46,197 nt of DNA. Source: a virus. Position 1 is the first letter of the stretch. Each line of letters begins with the position of its first letter. Both the position numbers and the translations under genes were made by a program. The stretch is taken from positions 1 through 46,197 of IMG/VR virus record IMGVR_UViG_3300046538_000126; one strand, 5' to 3'. The notes beneath the pieces are model-generated. The model was not told the origin of the DNA and searched no databases. It saw only the letters and a program-made list of their open reading frames with translations. This document shows positions 23,664-44,494 of the stretch, in pieces.

Positions 23664-25367
23664 TCATACCACCAATAAAGTGTAATCGTCAGGCATCTGC
23701 GGAGTTCCGTCGCCGGACATCGCGCGGCCGATACCCATGATCGCCGCCACAATGCCGTCAATCTTCTGCTCGGGCTTTTCTTTGCGCGGGTAGATGTTGT
23801 CCTTGGCGTCCAGCTTCGCGACGACGTTCGACGCCATCCAGGTCAGCACCGGATTGCCGTCGTGGTGCAGACGGCCGGCCTTGACCGCGCTTTCCATCTC
23901 TTTCATCGGCAGGCTCATGGTATTGACCAGCTGTCGGTACTCCACCAACTCGGCACCGTCCTTCATCAGCTGCTGCGCCATGTGCGCCGCGCGCCAGGGA
24001 TCGAAGGCAACCTCGACCGGCTGATATGCCGCCAACTGATGTTCGGTGTGCTCGCGAATCAGGTCGTAATCGATTTCGGCGCCATCGTGCTGCTCGAGGA
24101 AGCCCTCGATCACCCACTTGCGGTAGGCGTCCCGGTTTTTCGGGTCGTTCTCGATTGCGTTCTCAGGCAGGAAGTATTTGCCGAAAAGGTAATAGTGGTC
24201 CTTGCCGTCGATCCGCTTCTTGAAAACCTGCATGACCACGCAGACGTCCGACGTGCTGGCCAGATCCAGCGTGAGCCAGTTCTCGCAGCCAGCGAACTGC
24301 TCCGGCCGCAGCGTGTAATCTGCGCAGCGGTTCCAGTCGAGGATGTTTAACCAGGCCGACTTCGCCGAGCACCACACGTTCAAGTGCTTGGTCTTGAACC
24401 GGGTCTGCTTGGCAGCGCTGTTCACCGCCTGGCGCTGCTGGCTCAGCAAGTACTCGGCGTCGACCGAGACGCCCATGTTCGGGTTCGCCTTGCGCAGCGC
24501 CTTCGGATCGTCCCAGGCGTCGCCGTCGTCGATCGTGTACATGATGGCGAAGAGCTCGTCCTCGACCATCACGCCCTGCAGCACCTTCTTGCAGTCCGTC
24601 TCCTGGTCGTAGCACGGACCGGCGATGTTGAAGCCGGCCGTCGTGATCTCAACCATCAGCGGCTGGTCGCGGGAGCCCATACCGGTCTCCATCGTGTCGA
24701 CCAGGTCGGACGTGTCATGTTCGTGGTATTCGTCCACGATGGCGCAGGACGGCGATGAACCATCGCCCGGCTTGCCGATGACCGGCTCGAACCGGCTGCC
24801 GTCCTCCGGCGTGACCAGCATCTTGGCCCAGACCTCGGCGCCGATCAGCTCGCGCAGCTCCGGCGTGCGCTCCACCATCTGCTTGGCCGGGCGGAACACC
24901 TCCCATGCCTGCTTCTCGGTGGTCGCGCCCGAGTAGACCTCGGCGCCGAATTCGCCGTCGGCAGCGAACATGTACAGCCCGACGCCGGCGGCGATGATCG
25001 ACTTGCCGTTCTTCCGCGGCACGGCGATGTAGGCCTTGCGGAAGCGGCGCCGGCCGCATTTCGTCTTCTTGACCCGATGCTTCCAGCCGAACAGCACGCA
25101 GAAAATGAACGACTGCCACGGCTGGAGAACGATCAGCTCCTTCTTCTGCCCCCACTTTCCCTTCGTGTGCGGCAGCATCTCGATGAACTGGCAGACCAAC
25201 TCGGCCGCGTCCGGGTCGTAGATAAACTTCGCGCGCTGCGACTTGTTTGCCACCAGGTCGCCCAGGTGACGCTTGCACGCCAGCTGCACCCAAGTGCACG
25301 CCAATATCTTGCCGGCGACGACATCTCGGGCATATTTGTTGGCTGCATTGACGTGTGGGTGTTCCAT
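23664..25367 (-). CDS. terminase large subunit
   Basis: The 567-residue protein is the DNA-packaging motor ATPase/nuclease. Walker A VPRKNGKS is at residues 116-123 and Walker B with the catalytic acid reads AIVDE at 209-213. The nuclease domain has Asp368 in LDLAST and a later acidic segment DPWRAAHMAQ. The N-terminal segment (MLPHTKGKWGQKKELIVLQPWQSFI) is typical of HK97/P27-type large terminases. Length and motif spacing are normal. It is preceded by the small terminase gene and followed by a tiny membrane protein and the portal. Confidence 0.95.
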   Translation of the reverse strand: MEHPHVNAANKYARDVVAGKILACTWVQLACKRHLGDLVANKSQRAKFIYDPDAAELVCQFIEMLPHTKGKWGQKKELIVLQPWQSFIFCVLFGWKHRVKKTKCGRRRFRKAYIAVPRKNGKSIIAAGVGLYMFAADGEFGAEVYSGATTEKQAWEVFRPAKQMVERTPELRELIGAEVWAKMLVTPEDGSRFEPVIGKPGDGSSPSCAIVDEYHEHDTSDLVDTMETGMGSRDQPLMVEITTAGFNIAGPCYDQETDCKKVLQGVMVEDELFAIMYTIDDGDAWDDPKALRKANPNMGVSVDAEYLLSQQRQAVNSAAKQTRFKTKHLNVWCSAKSAWLNILDWNRCADYTLRPEQFAGCENWLTLDLASTSDVCVVMQVFKKRIDGKDHYYLFGKYFLPENAIENDPKNRDAYRKWVIEGFLEQHDGAEIDYDLIREHTEHQLAAYQPVEVAFDPWRAAHMAQQLMKDGAELVEYRQLVNTMSLPMKEMESAVKAGRLHHDGNPVLTWMASNVVAKLDAKDNIYPRKEKPEQKIDGIVAAIMGIGRAMSGDGTPQMPDDYTLLVV

Positions 25368-25999: not shown

Positions 26000-26341
26000 C
26001 TACTTGCTTTTCGACCGTTCCCATTCAGCGACGAGGCGCGGATCATGCCGGGCTGGAGGCGGGGTTGGCGCCGGTGGCACTCGCTGCATCTCCGGAACGC
26101 TGATGCCCCAGCCGAGGACACGGGCACGCGTGTCGTATGGGCTAGACTTCAGCGGCTTGCATTCGGCTGCGAGAGGCGGCGGGTTTCGAAGCGGCGGGAC
26201 TTGCCCCAACCGCGACCAGACCACGGCCGAGATGTGCGCAGCGCAATGGCGGCAGGTTCTGGCTGCGGCGATGTCTGCCTCGAACCCATGCACCACCCAG
26301 TCGTGCCCGACGATCATGCACTTGATGCGCTTGAGGTTCAT
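26000..26341 (-). CDS. hypothetical phage protein with Cys/His cluster
   Basis: The 113-residue product begins MNLKRIKCMIVGHDWVVHG and has CRHCAAH in the middle, so a small metal site involving C and H residues (C8, H13 and the CxxC) is plausible. The rest is proline-rich and basic. I do not know the family. It overlaps the HNH nuclease stop codon (ATGA) and precedes the terminase genes by a gap. Confidence 0.55.
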   Translation of the reverse strand: MNLKRIKCMIVGHDWVVHGFEADIAAARTCRHCAAHISAVVWSRLGQVPPLRNPPPLAAECKPLKSSPYDTRARVLGWGISVPEMQRVPPAPTPPPARHDPRLVAEWERSKSK

Positions 26342-26742
26342 CTTCCCGCCTTCTCTTCCGCCTGCTTCACGCCGTCGTGGCACAGCTTGCACATCGACTG
26401 CCAGTTGTTCTCACTATCCCAGAACAGCGCCTTGGCCCTTGCTATCCTCGCCTCATCGCCGCTATCGATCGCTTCCTTCAGCTTGTGAGCGATGATGTGA
26501 TCGACCACGTTGGCCGCTTGTACCCGGCCGGCACGCATGCAGTACACGCACAGCGGGTACTTGCGCAGCCATGCAGCGCGCGCCCTGGTCCATGCGCTGG
26601 TGTAGCCGCGCTCCTGCGCAGTGCCGCGCTGCTCGTCCTCATCCTTGCGCTTAGCCTTGAGGTGCTTGTCGCAGTAGCCTGGCTCAGCGATGGTCTTGCC
26701 GCATCCAGCTTGGCGGCAGATGGATTTGGCTCTGGCGGGCAC
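26338..26742 (-). CDS. HNH endonuclease (packaging-associated)
   Basis: The 134-residue enzyme has a treble-clef HNH fold: zinc ligands in the pairs C65-x2-C68 and C118-x2-C121, the signature DH at 81-82 in VVDHIIAH, Asn113 in SENNWQ and His122. The N-terminal half also has a small Cys cluster (CRQAGCGKTI, GYCDKH). HNH proteins next to HK97-type terminases stimulate cos cleavage, so this one should work with the terminase. It lies first in the head operon on the minus strand, near a divergent promoter for the PEP-CTERM gene. Confidence 0.88.
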   Translation of the reverse strand: MPARAKSICRQAGCGKTIAEPGYCDKHLKAKRKDEDEQRGTAQERGYTSAWTRARAAWLRKYPLCVYCMRAGRVQAANVVDHIIAHKLKEAIDSGDEARIARAKALFWDSENNWQSMCKLCHDGVKQAEEKAGR

Positions 26743-26756
26743 TTATGATCGATGTG

Positions 26757-26785
26757 TTGCAACAAGTGAAATAGATTGTTATATT
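26757..26785 (+). promoter_or_regulatory. sigma-70 promoter for the PEP-CTERM gene
   Basis: TTGCAA at 26757-26762 and TATATT at 26780-26785 are separated by exactly 17 bases, ahead of a start codon 29 bases further on with GGAG six bases before it. The AT-rich sequence stands out from the GC-rich surroundings. This is a promoter of its own, firing opposite to the late operon, as expected for a gene expressed in the lysogen. Confidence 0.75.
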
Positions 26786-26814
26786 GGTAACTCAAACATA
26801 ACCCGGAGTAACAA

Positions 26815-27363
26815 ATGAATCGACTATTCGGCTTCTCGGCAATGATATTGATGCTGCTGCTGTCTTCCGCCGCCAACGCACAAAACATTAGGCAACTCAC
26901 AGGCGACACGGTTGCGGTGGCCTACTTCTTTGGCAATGACCGTGAGGCCGTAGATTTGGCGGTTCCGGGCGTGGTCATCCAGGAGGGGACAACGTTCCAT
27001 CTGGATCTCATGGGATTCGACGTCACTGTGACACCTACGCAGATCATCGCTCACAACTTTTCGACCGAGGCGAAGTGGGGCGACAGCGCCATCAATGGCT
27101 TTGCGGTCTACGACCAAACGCACCTATTCGTCGGGCTGGCCAGCTACGACGCATCTTCCACTATGGCCGGACTAACTCCGCGAAGGCTCAACTATTCGCC
27201 GTATGTCGTCTTCATAAATTGGCCATCACTGTCATTCGATCCACAAACGATCGTCGCTGTAAATGTTAACCAAGTTCCAGAACCAACTACATACATCATG
27301 CTGGCGGCTGGCTTGGCACTTATCGCATGGCGCCGCAAGATGACTGTGAAGCCTTGTGTTTAA
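26815..27363 (+). CDS. PEP-CTERM sorting-domain surface protein (lysogenic conversion candidate)
   Basis: The 182-residue product has a classical N-terminal signal peptide (MNRLFGFSAMILMLLLSSAANA, likely cut after AANA) and, at the C terminus, a PEP-CTERM motif: VPEPTTY, a hydrophobic span (IMLAAGLALIAW) and RRK, followed by seven extra residues. Such proteins are exported and processed by host exosortase (EpsH/XrtA type), usually in species making exopolysaccharide. The middle is beta-rich and without recognised catalytic residues. It lies on the plus strand inside a minus-strand late operon with its own promoter and ends in a TTAA shared with the opposite gene. It has lower GC than its neighbours, which suggests later acquisition. 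Confidence 0.85.
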   Translation: MNRLFGFSAMILMLLLSSAANAQNIRQLTGDTVAVAYFFGNDREAVDLAVPGVVIQEGTTFHLDLMGFDVTVTPTQIIAHNFSTEAKWGDSAINGFAVYDQTHLFVGLASYDASSTMAGLTPRRLNYSPYVVFINWPSLSFDPQTIVAVNVNQVPEPTTYIMLAAGLALIAWRRKMTVKPCV

Positions 27364-28571
27364 GTCGATTTGTAGATGCTGTTGAGCGCGGACAAGAATT
27401 GCAATTCCGCACCTCGATTGCCAGTAGGTTCATCGGGACGGAAACTGGTTTTACTGCGGGAGACGCCGCCGATCGTGGCATAGTCAGTCCCGGTCAATGC
27501 CGGGAAATCCCAGAGTAATGCGAGTTGGATGCCCGCTGACATAATTGCAGAGGCTACGCGCTCTTGCTGTTGTGCAGGTAAGCGGCCGACGCTATAGTCC
27601 TGCGGGATGCCAAACTCGCCAACAATGACCGGCTTCCCGGCGGCAGCGCACGTATCTTTCACGTTGCGCAGGAAATATTCGTAGCCCAGGAAGTCTGAGT
27701 TGTAGTACTGGCCGTTGTTGAAGGTGGCGTACGTGTGGATACATGCGACGTCCGTCTTCTCGTCGTCGAGCATGTCCTGCATCCAGCGCGAGAATTTTTG
27801 GGTCACGATACGATTGCGATAACCTTGATTGCCAGACGTCGTGGCGCGGCTCGCTGTGGTGCCGGACCAAGCCGGGGAGTTGTCCAGCGCCTTCACATTT
27901 TGCTGGAAGGCGGTCATGGCATTGTGGACCGTTTCGATAGTCCCAGAGTCGTTCGGATAAACCCAAGCAGCCGGCGTGCCCAGGTCGGTGTTGATGCTGA
28001 AGCCGTTTGTCGGGTCCGGGGCCTGCGAGCTAGCGTACTGACCAGCATTGCCGATCGTGCCATCATATTCATTACCGAATTGCCACATGGCGATCGCCGG
28101 CGAATTCTTGTAACGATTGACCAGGCTGGTCTGCACGTCCAGCATGGCCAGCCTGGTTTGGCTGGTGCTCGATGCGATGGCACTCAGCCCCTCTCCGTAC
28201 ACCGGGGCGATCTGGGCTGGGTCGAAATGCAGAGACGGGATCAGTAACATCCCCTTGGCTTCGCAGATGGCGATCATCGCATCAAATGCGGCCAGGTATC
28301 CGGCCTTCGCCTCGATCCAGCTTTTCTGGAACAGCAACGGGCGGTTACCGAATGCGGCGAAGCGTACGACACGGAAACCGTAGCTCAACATCAAGTCGCA
28401 ATTCGCTGCCACATTGGTCTGGTACGTGATCGGGTTCCCTGACGTGGGCACCAACGAAGAATTCGTGTTGGAGAGCCAGCGAATCAGGAAATCTGGGCAG
28501 TTCAGGCCAAATTCTCGAACCGGCACGCCGCGGTGCATCAGCACAGAGCCATTGGTATAAAAAGCTGACAT
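27360..28571 (-). CDS. GH5-like (clan A) glycosidase, putative virion polysaccharide depolymerase
   Basis: The 403-residue protein has the landmarks of a TIM-barrel clan GH-A glycosidase: Asn167-Glu168 in MWQFGNEYDG (acid/base), IHTY at 278-281, Glu319 in VIVGEFG (nucleophile) and LLWDF at 352-356. The N terminus (MSAFYTNGSVLMHRGVPVREFGLN) starts inside the barrel without a signal peptide, so it is not exported by the Sec route. A virion-bound enzyme attacking capsule or exopolysaccharide is likely. The family includes cellulases and mannanases, so substrate is unknown. It is followed upstream by two small beta-rich proteins and faces the PEP-CTERM gene. Confidence 0.75.
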   Translation of the reverse strand: MSAFYTNGSVLMHRGVPVREFGLNCPDFLIRWLSNTNSSLVPTSGNPITYQTNVAANCDLMLSYGFRVVRFAAFGNRPLLFQKSWIEAKAGYLAAFDAMIAICEAKGMLLIPSLHFDPAQIAPVYGEGLSAIASSTSQTRLAMLDVQTSLVNRYKNSPAIAMWQFGNEYDGTIGNAGQYASSQAPDPTNGFSINTDLGTPAAWVYPNDSGTIETVHNAMTAFQQNVKALDNSPAWSGTTASRATTSGNQGYRNRIVTQKFSRWMQDMLDDEKTDVACIHTYATFNNGQYYNSDFLGYEYFLRNVKDTCAAAGKPVIVGEFGIPQDYSVGRLPAQQQERVASAIMSAGIQLALLWDFPALTGTDYATIGGVSRSKTSFRPDEPTGNRGAELQFLSALNSIYKST

Positions 28572-28582
28572 TTGTGCGCCCT

Positions 28583-29218
28583 TTAGATATTGGTAAAACT
28601 GAGCGCGACGTCAATGTCGCTCACCGTCCCGAATGCAGTAGTACCCGCACGGGTCAAAACCGCATAAATCGAACCGCTGGCAGCACCGGAAAACATCTTG
28701 TCGATCTTGTCCGCGGCCCAGATGGTGTGGGTGCCGAGACCACTCGCCGGAGTTAGCGTGTAGGATGCGACCAATTTGCTGAAATCGGCGATGTTTATGT
28801 TTGGGGCGGCCTTGTCGTTAAGAGTCGACGCTGATGGGCTGGCAGAGAAGAGCCACAACGTCAGATTGTCGGATTGCGTGCTCTTGCATGCGACGCGAAC
28901 CGAGCGGAGCAGTGCGAGTCCACGCGGCCCCAGTACAGCCGCAAACGTCATCACACCGCCGACGACGTTGCCGGCGGTGTAGGCCGACGTTGAAACAGGC
29001 GGAGCCACTGCCACTAGGGAGCCGCCAGTTGTGAATACCGATCGCGTCCCAGGGGCGATGGAGAGTGATGCGGAGATATCCTGTTCACCAAGGAATGGTG
29101 GGAACTGGCCTAGCGTCTCGTCCGTGGCAAGCGTTACCGAGACACTGTTCGCACCAACCTGAGGCCCCTTAGCCAGACGAGCGATGAGGCTTGCGATTAA
29201 CGTGGAAATGTTTGGCAT
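28583..29218 (-). CDS. hypothetical beta-rich virion protein
   Basis: A 211-residue protein with alternating strands, low charge and many Gly, Ala, Ser and Thr residues (SVSVTLATDETLGQFPP, LLRSVRVACKSTQSDNLTLWLFSASP, FGTVSDIDVALSFTNI). It resembles proteins found next to tail fibre or tip genes in other phages, without a name I can give. It lies 11 bases upstream of the glycosidase and nine bases downstream of another small structural gene, so the three probably act as one set. Confidence 0.6.
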   Translation of the reverse strand: MPNISTLIASLIARLAKGPQVGANSVSVTLATDETLGQFPPFLGEQDISASLSIAPGTRSVFTTGGSLVAVAPPVSTSAYTAGNVVGGVMTFAAVLGPRGLALLRSVRVACKSTQSDNLTLWLFSASPSASTLNDKAAPNINIADFSKLVASYTLTPASGLGTHTIWAADKIDKMFSGAASGSIYAVLTRAGTTAFGTVSDIDVALSFTNI

Positions 29219-29227
29219 GTGTTCGCC

Positions 29228-29452
29228 TTACGGATAGGTCAAACTGGTGCGGTTGTCCCAAACGTTGTCGTAACTCACGTCGCCGTCCGCGTACTTGAAC
29301 GTCTGCGCGGTGCCGCTGGTGCTCATGCGTTGGATCTGCCAAGATCCAGCCGAAGTGAGCGTGCCAGGTGATGCGTTGCCGAAGTAGGTGTTGCCGTCGG
29401 CATTCGTATCGACGATCTGGACGTTTGCGGCGTCGAATGTTTGACCGGGCAT
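29228..29452 (-). CDS. small structural protein with YDNVW motif
   Basis: A 74-residue product with MPGQTFDAANVQIVDT at the start and WQIQRMSTSGTAQTFKYADG followed by YDNVWDNRTSLTY at the end. The WxI-R...YA-G...-DNVW-R-SLTY pattern recurs in small proteins near tail genes of phages infecting proteobacteria. Function is unknown; a beta-stranded virion component is likely. The longer upstream frame crosses a terminator and was not used. Confidence 0.6.
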   Translation of the reverse strand: MPGQTFDAANVQIVDTNADGNTYFGNASPGTLTSAGSWQIQRMSTSGTAQTFKYADGDVSYDNVWDNRTSLTYP

Positions 29453-29462
29453 GGAGACCTCA

Positions 29463-29499
29463 AATAAAAATGCCGCCAGCGCATGGATGCGGAGGCGGC
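29463..29499 (-). terminator. strong intrinsic terminator before the accessory operon
   Basis: Minus strand: GCCGCC-TC-CGCAT-CC-ATGCG-CT-GGCGGC followed by ATTTTTATTT. Two nested stems of six and five base pairs make this one of the most stable terminators in the window. It lies upstream of the small virion gene of the island and behind the gene for a 54-residue protein, so it would block transcription into the head genes unless the polymerase is antiterminated. Confidence 0.8.
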
Positions 29500-29548
29500 G
29501 AAGGACCGGCGCGAGCCAATCGGGAGACACTGGGAAAGGCAGCGAGGC

Positions 29549-32324: not shown

Positions 32325-32405
32325 CCAAATACCGATGACTGATGATAATCATGGAGTTGAGGATTCATGCGGGGTTGCGGCCGGTCGTTCGCCACTTTCT
32401 CGCCG
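32325..32405. repeat. direct repeat, copy B (overlaps integrase 3' end)
   Basis: This copy covers the last 57 coding bases of the integrase gene and the 24 bases behind it; the stop codon at 32349-32351 lies in it. It matches copy A in two blocks. It therefore looks like the source of the duplication, since it includes coding sequence of the integrase C terminus. Confidence 0.8.
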
Positions 32406-33425
32406 AGACGAAAATCCGATTTTCTCGGCGATGTCGTGCTGGGCGTTCACAGCGGTGTCGAGATCCTTCTCCAGGTAGGCCATGGTGGTCATCGGGCTTT
32501 TGTGCCGCATCACCTTCTGGATCGTCTGGATCGGCACGCCGGCCTCCGAGAGCATCGTCGCGAAGGTGCCGCGCAGCCGGTGCGGCGTGATGCCCTTGGT
32601 GGCGCATGCTGCGTTCGCCTGCAGCATCACAGTTCGGGCGAAGCCTGGCGGATGCTGGCGGCCGTTGCGCTTGGCCGCGATCAGGCCCTCGGCCTTGCGG
32701 TGTGGCGCCAGATGGTCGGCAAGCCAATCCGGAAGCGGCACCGGCTCGGCCTCGCGGCCCTTTGTCACGCCCGGCGTGTACGTCGCCCGCTGCCAGTCGA
32801 TCCATTCCCAGCGCGCGCCCGCCGCCTCGCCCTCGCGCAGGCCAAGGCCGAACATCATCCGGATGGCGGTGGCCGCTGACGGTTCGCCGCGGGCAGCAAC
32901 ATCGATGGCGACAAACCATGCCTTGGCGACGTCGACCGGCAGGATCGATCGCGGCCGCTTTTGCAGCTTGAGCATCTTGACGCGCCACGGCAGCGCCGGG
33001 ATGATCTCGCGCTTGACCGCCCAGTTGGCCAGCAGCTTCAGGATCCGCAGCCAGTGGTTGGCCGACGCCGGCTTGTGCGTCGTGAGGTGGGTGTTGCGCG
33101 CCATCTCAACCAGTTGAGTGGTGATCATGTTGACCGGCAGTTCGCCGAGGTCATATAGGTGCAGCCGATTGAATGTATCCACGCTGCGCAGATGCGCATG
33201 GCTGGCGACCTGCTTATGGATCGCTAACCATCCACTGGCCAGATCGCGCAGCGCCGGCACAGGCTTACCACCCTGGGCGACCCTCACCGCATCCTCGTAG
33301 GCGCGCTGCGCAACCACGTCAGCCTTGCCCTTTGCCCGCTCCCGGGTGCTTCGCTGCTGTCTGATGCTATCGATCTGGAACCGGTAATGCCAGATACCGC
33401 CGACTTTGAATAGCGCGTAGCTCAT
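32349..33425 (-). CDS. tyrosine recombinase (phage integrase)
   Basis: A 358-residue site-specific recombinase with all catalytic residues: Arg197 (GLREGE), Lys222 (VTKGRE), His282 and Arg285 (PHRLRGT), His308 (MRHKSP) and the nucleophile Tyr317 (MAYLEK). An N-terminal arm-binding domain (about 1-70) and core-binding domain (about 70-160) precede. It probably drives integration into tRNA-Leu. Its place is unusual, inside the right early operon with replication genes upstream, about 32 kb from the visible attachment site. The 3' end is duplicated (copies A and B). Confidence 0.9.
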   Translation of the reverse strand: MSYALFKVGGIWHYRFQIDSIRQQRSTRERAKGKADVVAQRAYEDAVRVAQGGKPVPALRDLASGWLAIHKQVASHAHLRSVDTFNRLHLYDLGELPVNMITTQLVEMARNTHLTTHKPASANHWLRILKLLANWAVKREIIPALPWRVKMLKLQKRPRSILPVDVAKAWFVAIDVAARGEPSAATAIRMMFGLGLREGEAAGARWEWIDWQRATYTPGVTKGREAEPVPLPDWLADHLAPHRKAEGLIAAKRNGRQHPPGFARTVMLQANAACATKGITPHRLRGTFATMLSEAGVPIQTIQKVMRHKSPMTTMAYLEKDLDTAVNAQHDIAEKIGFSSRRESGERPAATPHESSTP

Positions 33426-38558: not shown

Positions 38559-40826
38559 TCACGCCGCGACTCCCGCGATCTCGCGCTCGTGCATGAAGTT
38601 CGCCTGGATCAGCGCCCTCGCCATCGGCGGGCAAACGCTGTTGCCGCACATGCGCACTTGGGCCGATTTCGTCAGCGGCACTCGAGGCAAATCAAGCGGA
38701 TTGCCCTCGGCCTGATGGCCGTCCATGAACAGCAGCTTCGGATCCGGGATTTCCCGAATGACGTAGTCGGAAGGGAAGCCCTGGGCGCGGTACAGCTCAG
38801 CCGGCTCCAGCATGCGCAGGCCGATGTCGACGATCTGATAATCCACGCCCTGGATTGTCACCAAGCCGTAGCGATCCTTTGTGGTGACTGTATGCAACGG
38901 CTCTTCGAGGCGCGGATCCTGATCGGTGCCGTAGTACTTTACGAGGAAGGCGCGTACCTCGGCGTGGTGCTGGCCGCCGGCACTGACCGTGTGCAGCGGC
39001 TCGTCCATGCCGGCCGTGCTGCTGGTGCCGCGGAGTTTGACGAGGCTGCTGGTCATCAGCGCATGCCGGGCACTGGCGGTCACGGTCTTGATCGGTTCCC
39101 GCGCATCCTGGCCGCGCGACTCGTCGCCTTTCTGAGAGTACATCGCCTCGATGTGGGCTGTCACGACCGCATGGCGGTTCTCTGTGGTGATGGTCTTCAC
39201 CGGCTCGTCCGGCAACTGGCCGCGCGCATCCGACGGCCGCTTGTCGCTGTAGTACGGTTGCAGGTGCGCAGCGACCAGGCTGTGGTGGTCGCAGCTTGTG
39301 ACCGTGCCCAGCGGATCGTCGAGGTCCGAGCCGACCACGCCGGTGTAGTGCTTCGCTAAGAAAGCGGTGGCGATCGCGGTGTCGCCCTTTGCGGTGATCG
39401 TCGCGGCCGGCTCGTCGGCGCCGCGCGGGCGGCTTTCGCCGGCCCGGCCGCCGACGCCCACCAAGGTCGCGGAGACGGCACTGAAGTGGCCGCCCTTGAC
39501 CTGGGCGCAGATGGTGCGCAGCGGCTCGTCGGCGGGCATGGTGCGCTGGTTGGACGCATTGGCGTGCTCGTTCAAGAACGCAGTGACCAGCGCCGCTTTG
39601 GCGCTGCCGGCCACCACGGTGCCCAGCGGCTTTTCAAGGTCGAGCGCGCGCGGCTCCTGGCCGGCGCGCTCACCGTATCCGACCTGCACCATTGTTGCGG
39701 TGGCCAGTGCCTTCTCGCCCCGCTGCGCGCTGGTGATCGTGCGGAACGGCTCGTGGACTGACTCGCTGCGGTCGCTGCCCTGGTGCGTGACCGGCACGAT
39801 GCTTGGCACGACCACGGCGCGGTGGTTCTCGGTGGTCAGGGTGCCGAATGGCTGGGCCGACGAGACAGGTTTGCCGGAATAGATCGGGCCGCCCTGCCCC
39901 ACAATAAACGGCGCGGCCGAGTCAACCACGTAGCGCATGATGCCCTTGGCGATGCGACGCATTGTCGCCTCGGCCAGCGGGCGCTTGCGCTCGAAGATGC
40001 TCGGGCAAGGGATCGACCAATCGATGCACTCGGCGGCCGTACGCCAAGGCGCCAGGTTCCCGGCCAGGACGCCGGCCGACGTCGGCGCACCGTTGGTGGG
40101 CGCCGGCCAGCGGATCGGCAACCCATCGCGCCGCGCCACCAAGAAGAAGCGCTTCCGGATGGTAGGCGTGTCGTAGTCGCTGGCGCGCAGCTCCTTGTGG
40201 TCGACCTTGTAGCCGTGGCCGCGCAGTTGGCGCAGGAAGCTCTCGAACGTCTTGCCCTTCTTCGCCGGATCCGGACGGAAGTTACCTTCGGCGTCGACCA
40301 ACAGCGGACCCCACGTTTTGAACTCCTCGACGTTCTCCAGCATGATCACTCGCGGCTTGCACTTCGCCGCCCAGCGCAGCGTCACCCAGGCCAGGCCGCG
40401 AATGTTCTTCGCCACCGGCGTGCCGCCCTTGGCTTTGCTGAAGTGCTTGCAGTCCGGCGACAGCCAGACCAGGCCGACCGGTTGATTGTTCGTGACCTTG
40501 ATCGGGTCGACGTCCCAGACGCTCTCACAGAGGTGCTTCGTGTACGGGTGATTCATTGCGTGCAGCGCCAGCGCTTCCGGATCGTGGTTGATGGCGATAT
40601 CGACCGGCCGGCCGAACGCTTCTTCCAGTCCGGTGCTGGTGCCACCGCCGCCGGCGAAGTTATCGATGATCAGCTCGTGGCCGAGGTCCAACTGCGGCGT
40701 CAGGAAATCACGCTTTACTCGGCGAGGTGCGCGGCGAGCCGCTGGCCGCGATGCCGGAACCGGAGTGGCCATCAGCGCGGCGACGTCGCCCAGGGGCAGA
40801 TCGAAATTGAACTCATCGCGCTTCAT
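38559..40826 (-). CDS. C5 cytosine DNA methyltransferase with ten-unit repeat domain
   Basis: The 755-residue enzyme has the C5-methyltransferase motifs: motif I DNFAGGGGTSTG (55-66), motif IV with catalytic Cys126 in SPDCKHFS, motif VI ENVEEF (164-169), RKRFFLVAR (224-232), and IX-X at 670-740 (MLEPAELYRAQGFPSDY, GNSVCPPMARAL). Between about residues 325 and 655, where the target recognition domain should be, lie ten repeats of about 30-40 residues with the core P-x2-T-[IVL]-[TSV]. The enzyme probably protects phage DNA against host restriction or modifies gene control; its target cannot be read. It overlaps the gene upstream by four bases. Confidence 0.85.
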   Translation of the reverse strand: MKRDEFNFDLPLGDVAALMATPVPASRPAARRAPRRVKRDFLTPQLDLGHELIIDNFAGGGGTSTGLEEAFGRPVDIAINHDPEALALHAMNHPYTKHLCESVWDVDPIKVTNNQPVGLVWLSPDCKHFSKAKGGTPVAKNIRGLAWVTLRWAAKCKPRVIMLENVEEFKTWGPLLVDAEGNFRPDPAKKGKTFESFLRQLRGHGYKVDHKELRASDYDTPTIRKRFFLVARRDGLPIRWPAPTNGAPTSAGVLAGNLAPWRTAAECIDWSIPCPSIFERKRPLAEATMRRIAKGIMRYVVDSAAPFIVGQGGPIYSGKPVSSAQPFGTLTTENHRAVVVPSIVPVTHQGSDRSESVHEPFRTITSAQRGEKALATATMVQVGYGERAGQEPRALDLEKPLGTVVAGSAKAALVTAFLNEHANASNQRTMPADEPLRTICAQVKGGHFSAVSATLVGVGGRAGESRPRGADEPAATITAKGDTAIATAFLAKHYTGVVGSDLDDPLGTVTSCDHHSLVAAHLQPYYSDKRPSDARGQLPDEPVKTITTENRHAVVTAHIEAMYSQKGDESRGQDAREPIKTVTASARHALMTSSLVKLRGTSSTAGMDEPLHTVSAGGQHHAEVRAFLVKYYGTDQDPRLEEPLHTVTTKDRYGLVTIQGVDYQIVDIGLRMLEPAELYRAQGFPSDYVIREIPDPKLLFMDGHQAEGNPLDLPRVPLTKSAQVRMCGNSVCPPMARALIQANFMHEREIAGVAA

Positions 40827-43895: not shown

Positions 43896-43961
43896 AGTAT
43901 AGAACACTACACTTTATAGAGTCAAGCACACTTTACCGAATGTTGTTTAGAGTTCTTTACA
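43896..43961 (-). promoter_or_regulatory. PR promoter with three repressor operators
   Basis: Minus-strand promoter: -35 TTGACT (43925-43920) and -10 TATACT (43901-43896), 18 bases apart. Operator-like sites follow a 13-base AGTGT-N3-ACACT consensus: O1 AGTATAGAACACT (43896-43908; 12 of 13), O2 AGTCAAGCACACT (43920-43932; 10 of 13), O3 AGAGTTCTTTACA (43949-43961; 9 of 13, reverse orientation). O1 covers the -10, O2 the -35, O3 the start of the repressor gene. That is like OR1-3 of lambda. The repressor's own promoter on the plus strand is weak (possible TTGAGT at 43888, TTTATA at 43913). Confidence 0.75.
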
Positions 43962-44494
43962 TGGATGATTTGATAAGCAGAGTGAAATCAATTTGCGACG
44001 AGCTAGCCGGTGACGACCATTTCGGTGGGCAGGCTGCGCTCGCGGCCGCCGCTGGGGCTTCCAAGAGCGTCGTGAACCAGTGGCTAGCTAATCGCATCAA
44101 GTCGATGGATATACGATTTGCCCTGGAGATTGAAAGAAACCTCGGGTACAACCACATCTGGCTGATGATCGGTAAGGGTAATAGGAAAGTTGACGGTGCT
44201 GCGCAGACAGGGGACGCAGCAACAAGGGCATCAACACCCATGATTGCGGATGACGCTCATAGGCATAGCCTGCCGAAAACCGAAGTGCCTGTCAATGCAG
44301 ACGTGTTGGCCAGTATTGGATTCTTGGCGGAGGATGAGGCGCGGCTTCTAAACTGGTACAGGATGTCCACTGACGACGCAAAGGAACTGTTGATGATTTC
44401 CGCTGGCGCGGCAGGGAAGAAGCAATTAAGCGCGCTTACTGACGACGAGACGCAGAACAGGTCTACGCGGGCGGGCGATCGCAACGGCCAATAG
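43961..44494 (+). CDS. CI-like phage repressor without peptidase domain
   Basis: A 177-residue product starting MDDLISRVKSICDELAGDDH. The N-terminal domain has an HTH (FGGQAALAAAAGASKSVVNQWLANRIKSMDIRFALEIERNL). The rest is a helical region (LASIGFLAEDEARLLNWYRMSTDDAKELLMI) without the S24/LexA Ser-Lys protease motif, so RecA-driven self-cleavage is not expected. It lies divergent from cro across three operators. O3 overlaps its start, suggesting autoregulation. Likely maintenance repressor of this lysogen. Confidence 0.82.
   Translation: MDDLISRVKSICDELAGDDHFGGQAALAAAAGASKSVVNQWLANRIKSMDIRFALEIERNLGYNHIWLMIGKGNRKVDGAAQTGDAATRASTPMIADDAHRHSLPKTEVPVNADVLASIGFLAEDEARLLNWYRMSTDDAKELLMISAGAAGKKQLSALTDDETQNRSTRAGDRNGQ

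Follow-up and report, generated by a model that had tools for sequence, protein, structure and literature searches.

Background

Lom and Bor of phage lambda are lysogenic-conversion morons that code for surface proteins, and Cor of the phi80- and N15-type phages is a superinfection-exclusion protein. The PEP-CTERM gene investigated here, which lies in a viral stretch of 46,197 nt (IMG/VR record IMGVR_UViG_3300046538_000126, positions 1 to 46,197; hereafter the window), resembles the lambda genes in being an accessory gene that has its own predicted promoter and lies in a temperate phage's late region and in having a product predicted at the cell surface, but the protein is a different one and its predicted sorting is exosortase-dependent. 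With Cor and with T5 Llp, which acts at the surface to block the receptor used by T5 itself (PMC9586334), it shares the form of a small exported phage protein that could block such a receptor; Llp, however, is a lipoprotein that plugs FhuA and comes from a lytic phage, whereas the window protein has neither a lipobox nor a known receptor.

Chromosomal PEP-CTERM/exosortase substrates (PF07589 and TIGR02595, near NF038126) are like the window protein in their signal peptide and tail, and one of them, PepA, shifted EPS from the released to the bound form and restored flocs (PMC9850573). Homologues of the window protein among them are coded by stand-alone genes in Oxalobacteraceae, whereas the window gene belongs to a temperate phage and lies against its late operon. 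The virion depolymerases and spike modules of phages offer a further comparison, as the gene's convergent GH5-like partner also occupies a variable late-operon slot; the PEP-CTERM partner sets the window apart from these modules, and no description of such a pairing was found.

A preliminary description of the locus, made from the sequence, had proposed that a prophage carries a PEP-CTERM surface protein as a moron and had named this a form of lysogenic conversion that it did not know to be described for such proteins. A search of the open-access literature is in keeping with the latter point, as it yielded no published case and no report of a phage-coded PEP-CTERM protein. We consider it probable that the gene is a lysogenic-conversion moron that feeds a phage-coded protein into the PEP-CTERM/exosortase route of the host. 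The gene, its tail, promoter and setting, its recurrence, transfer between phages, and selection on its relatives were read from sequence, from which we infer expression, processing, location, and a role at the surface. Two features were added to the preliminary description, namely that the gene has a GH5-like convergent neighbour and that PEP-CTERM genes recur next to enzyme or spike genes in unrelated phages.

The PEP-CTERM gene and its product

The gene occupies 26815..27363 on the plus strand (ATG at 26815, stop at 27363; 182 aa), with a GGAG 5' of the ATG. In the span of 26757-27363 first assigned to it, the end holds as the stop, and 26757 is the start of the promoter, the open reading frame beginning at the ATG. 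The product is laid out as a signal peptide, a putative beta-type domain of ~130 aa, and a tail at residues 153-175. Its N-terminus, MNRLFGFSAMILMLLLSSAANA with Q after the cleavage point, has the form of a classical signal peptide, the cleavage motif being A-N-A, and its C-terminus is VPEP-TTYIMLAAGLALIAW-RRK, which comprises the PEP motif, a hydrophobic span, and a basic end. Both features had been claimed on first reading and both were borne out, the tail passing the cut-offs of PF07589 (29.6 bits; cut-off 20.7) and TIGR02595 (23.3 bits; cut-off 16). A six-frame scan found this to be the single PEP-CTERM tail site in the window's 46 kb. The protein also aligned over residues 13-172 with the FxDxF family NF038126 (34.8 bits, E 1.8e-8), a score below the curated cut-off of 50 on which membership was rejected, and it fell under the cut-off of each named PEP-CTERM subfamily. 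Its AlphaFold model had a pLDDT of 42.

No close relatives of the protein were found in viral contigs (searched with peptide patterns), INPHARED, or plasmids. Its best chromosomal relatives are stand-alone genes of Oxalobacteraceae at 31-38% identity, an indication that the phage gene derives from a family of host genes; a tree of the protein with its chromosomal homologues gave no resolved placement, the window sequence standing on a long branch. That hosts of this phage type have exosortases is supported: the window encodes none, and two were present in each of nine Oxalobacteraceae genomes checked (eight with related prophages and one, G303, with a PEP-bearing prophage). The eight genomes with related prophages had 21-70 PEP-CTERM tails each; in 14 control genomes, the same PEP-CTERM profile gave no match at E<=0.01.

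The gene's promoter reads TTGCAA-N17-TATATT and has an extended -10 TG; it stands at exactly 26757..26785 on the plus strand, in agreement with the preliminary description of an independent plus-strand gene. By a graded sigma-70 matrix, no other site on either strand of the window scores as high as this one (17.3 bits); the runner-up, at 16.5 bits, is located between the Cro-like gene and the CI-like repressor gene. The promoter's score was not reached by any of 400 160-mers drawn at random from the window or by any of 300 shuffles. A plain sigma-70 consensus count around the gene found 3 sites against 2.7 expected, no excess over chance, and it is by matrix score alone that the gene is taken to have its own promoter. 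The scan listed no plus-strand terminator near 27363, and thus the gene lacks the terminator of its own by which a moron can be recognized. A further point against the moron reading is that no comparably strong promoter was detected upstream of most other convergent PEP genes.

Phage setting and variable slot

The window encodes a temperate siphophage gene set (endolysin, tape measure, tail terminator, head-tail adaptor, protease, portal, TerL, and HNH) and also an integrase, a lambda-P-like protein, an anti-repressor, a CI-like repressor, and a superinfection-immunity match. The large terminase subunit (TerL) is located at 23664..25367 (minus strand; phrog_9, 8e-177), the tyrosine integrase at 32349..33425 (minus strand; PF00589, 62.6 bits; phrog_1), and the CI-like repressor at 43940..44494 (plus strand; phrog_4 and phrog_35). 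A 117-aa protein at 45424-45777 matches phrog_1039 (immunity to superinfection) over residues 12-65. The window phage, probably one of Duganella-like bacteria, has as its nearest relative a Duganella sp. BJB476 prophage (L002; contig of 826 kb) with a 98% identical TerL; this prophage is collinear on either side of the slot that holds the PEP-CTERM gene, with 87-90% identity over most late genes and 90.6% DNA identity up to 26742. This integrated relative and the phage gene set uphold the location in a temperate phage that had been proposed for the moron.

The slot is bordered on the left by an HNH endonuclease gene (26338..26742, minus strand; PHROG HNH, 1.4e-31), after which the small and then the large terminase genes come, and on the right by a 100-aa late protein (29228..29530, minus strand) that is conserved in L002, where another spike-like ORF comes next. 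In the Duganella prophage, the segment 26742-29207 is replaced by one 572-aa ORF (L002:6583-8301), which we read as a putative SGNH-type spike, without profile support. As this prophage has another ORF and no PEP gene at that place, the gene is considered to lie in a variable slot; it is also absent from close relatives, and thus has the mark of a moron, an accessory gene of a temperate phage that its close relatives are missing. Separately, the SGNH-like ORF points to exchange of the late module that holds the GH5-like and PEP genes.

The PEP-CTERM gene is oriented opposite to the late operon that it adjoins and converges on a gene that encodes a GH5-like glycoside hydrolase of 403 aa (27360..28571, minus strand), the stops overlapping by 4 bp. 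The partner is a predicted enzyme by its PF00150 score (38.9 bits; cut-off 23.5), its best PDB match is the GH5 endo-mannanase 8d89 (E 2.4e-10), and the position of its gene suggests that it is probably virion-associated. No relatives of it were found in viral contigs, and 394 Oxalobacteraceae genomes gave matches at 24-27% identity only. Upstream of it is a 211-aa protein (28583..29218, minus strand) that had no family match and is probably structural.

If the gene is a moron, the late operon would be silent in the lysogen while the PEP gene's own strong promoter would drive its transcription on the other strand. The product would be exported by Sec, the host exosortase would cut its tail, and the processed protein would join the cell surface or the EPS matrix, where it may hinder re-adsorption by the same phage or alter the EPS binding or aggregation of the lysogen. 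In the lytic cycle, transcripts of the late operon would cover the gene in antisense. A change in the EPS or surface layer is the most likely effect, given the tail-to-tail arrangement with glycan-active or spike-like late genes and the exchange among phages described below.

Recurrence in other viral contigs

A check of phage and prophage proteins for PEP-CTERM tails, as the preliminary description had proposed, gave a positive result, with PEP-CTERM-type tails detected in 119 viral contigs by three pattern scans. An N-terminal signal was present in 100 of the translated tail-bearing proteins by a simple hydrophobicity rule (41 clusters), and all 17 of the tail-bearing contigs checked passed TIGR02595, which gave no match at E<=0.001 among 27 viral records whose terminase is of the same family. 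None of 11 phage PEP-CTERM proteins matched a PHROG family, and four PEP-CTERM queries found nothing among 50,697 phage records; phage family libraries miss these proteins. Three candidate carriers (L181, L191, and L190) were excluded because they look like host flanks; L190 in particular looks like host DNA called viral, given its chromosomal PEP-CTERM gene pair beside a ParB-like gene, a combination observed at L190:2785-4617 and L359:8685-10596.

One contig, L183, encodes a protein that is homologous to the window's (32% over 150 aa), with similarity that extends beyond the tail. Its phage has a P22-type coat protein and no notable similarity to the window phage apart from this homologue; its PEP gene is likewise convergent with a late gene, and Blast found no similarity between the product of that gene and the GH5-like protein.

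Convergent partners, exchange between phages, and possible roles

In the betaproteobacterial-style set, 10 of 19 PEP clusters were convergent with the next downstream gene against an expected 9%, the share among genes of those contigs (binomial p=2e-6; host flanks removed, genes called with a custom caller, and the window outside the 19). This scripted count supersedes a looser null (20%) that had given p ~1e-4 for hand-counted cases. The soil-style set had no excess of convergence (3/16, p=0.64). The convergent partners in the betaproteobacterial-style set were mostly enzyme, spike, or fibre genes. Profiles support a GHL15 in L176, a GDSL esterase in L184/L341 (with two small genes intervening), an FAD oxidoreductase with Golvesin_C fused to a virion-type N-terminus in L235/L342, and a DUF1996 protein in L182, while the partners in L183, L189, L178, and L174 look, without profile support, like TIM-barrel, propeller, or beta-helix proteins (the AlphaFold model of the L183 partner had a pLDDT of 34). 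The PEP genes of L188/L195 adjoin a small gene followed by a tail fibre gene, and those of L175 and L196 adjoin lysis-type genes.

Convergent pairing with enzyme or spike genes favors superinfection exclusion, a version of the moron reading in which the displayed protein would mask or remodel the EPS or receptor that the phage's enzyme or spike recognizes and so spare lysogens re-adsorption, in the manner of Llp but via the exosortase route. The blocking of the T5 receptor by Llp provides a precedent (PMC9586334), although two of the convergent partners are lysis-type genes and the window phage already has its phrog_1039 immunity protein. Further evidence on both sides comes from exchange between phages. 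One head/tail backbone is common to L341, L342, and L183, and all three have an opposite-strand PEP gene in the slot that the spike/decoration gene and the head-tail connector enclose; neither the PEP protein nor the enzyme is the same in any two of them, which favors exclusion. L178 and L341 have unrelated backbones and share 846 bp at 84% identity, consisting of the PEP gene, its upstream DNA, and ~60 bp of the start of the L341 connector gene, which is read as persisting in L178 as a scar. As judged from this shared stretch, the PEP gene and its upstream DNA have moved between unrelated phages. The two have just one other protein part in common, namely a domain of a spike (55% over 110 aa); that this domain travels with the shared PEP family also speaks for exclusion, but the same PEP cluster is accompanied by different enzymes in the two contigs. 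An L341-type prophage was found in the bacterial genome G303, which has two exosortases. On balance, we regard superinfection exclusion as possible, at roughly one chance in three.

The same standing is given to a benefit in host fitness, whereby the PEP-CTERM protein would tie EPS to the cell or aid lysogen aggregation as PepA does in flocculating bacteria, and the adjacent enzyme gene would mark a tolerated insertion site. PEP-CTERM proteins are known to affect bound EPS and flocs (PMC9850573), and the relatives of the window protein are ordinary chromosomal PEP-CTERM genes; alone, however, this explanation leaves the excess of convergence with enzyme and spike genes in the betaproteobacterial-style set unaccounted for. 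It is also possible, though less likely than not, that swappable convergent cassettes are common in phages of exosortase-bearing bacteria, each combining the gene of a virion glycan-active enzyme or spike with that of an exosortase-displayed PEP-CTERM protein that would shield lysogens from the matching enzyme or spike.

It is unlikely that the PEP gene is a passenger, i.e., a host gene caught by chance in late-module exchange with no role for the phage. Its GC content of 0.53 is below the 0.62 of the phage genes, though that of the adjacent GH5-like gene is also low (0.57), and its absence from close relatives would fit; against this, the window's best promoter belongs to it, PEP genes recur in many phages and have apparently been transferred between them, and dN/dS values of 0.09-0.38 in phage PEP pairs indicate that selection acts on its relatives. 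Misassembly of host DNA with phage DNA, which the preliminary description had named as a way for its reading to fail, is very improbable even though some IMG/VR tail-bearing matches are host flanks (the three excluded contigs), as phage genes lie within 75 bp on both sides of the PEP gene, the outer slot borders match the Duganella prophage, and the distant homologue in L183 has the same convergent arrangement.

Provided that the protein is displayed, lysogenic conversion by phages makes use of the exosortase pathway, and the many PEP-CTERM proteins without a known role acquire a setting open to testing, in which the partner enzyme or spike hints at the possible target of each.

Other observations

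PEP-CTERM genes also occurred in other arrangements. In a related phage, a Herbaspirillum prophage, the replication genes are separated from the terminase genes by two unrelated PEP-CTERM genes (L087:4146-6467). Contigs L241-L320 (e.g., L267, L273, L277, L299, L309, and L319) contain one large PEP-CTERM family, with 37 contigs in one cluster, and often have same-strand rows of 2-3 different PEP-CTERM-like genes, some of which adjoin terminase genes. In the Mu-like phages L185, L187, and L192, probably of sphingomonads, the PEP-CTERM genes are on the same strand in the head/tail operon. Within the window, a 755-aa protein (38559-40826) has DNA methyltransferase matches at both ends and is possibly a fused or interrupted methyltransferase.
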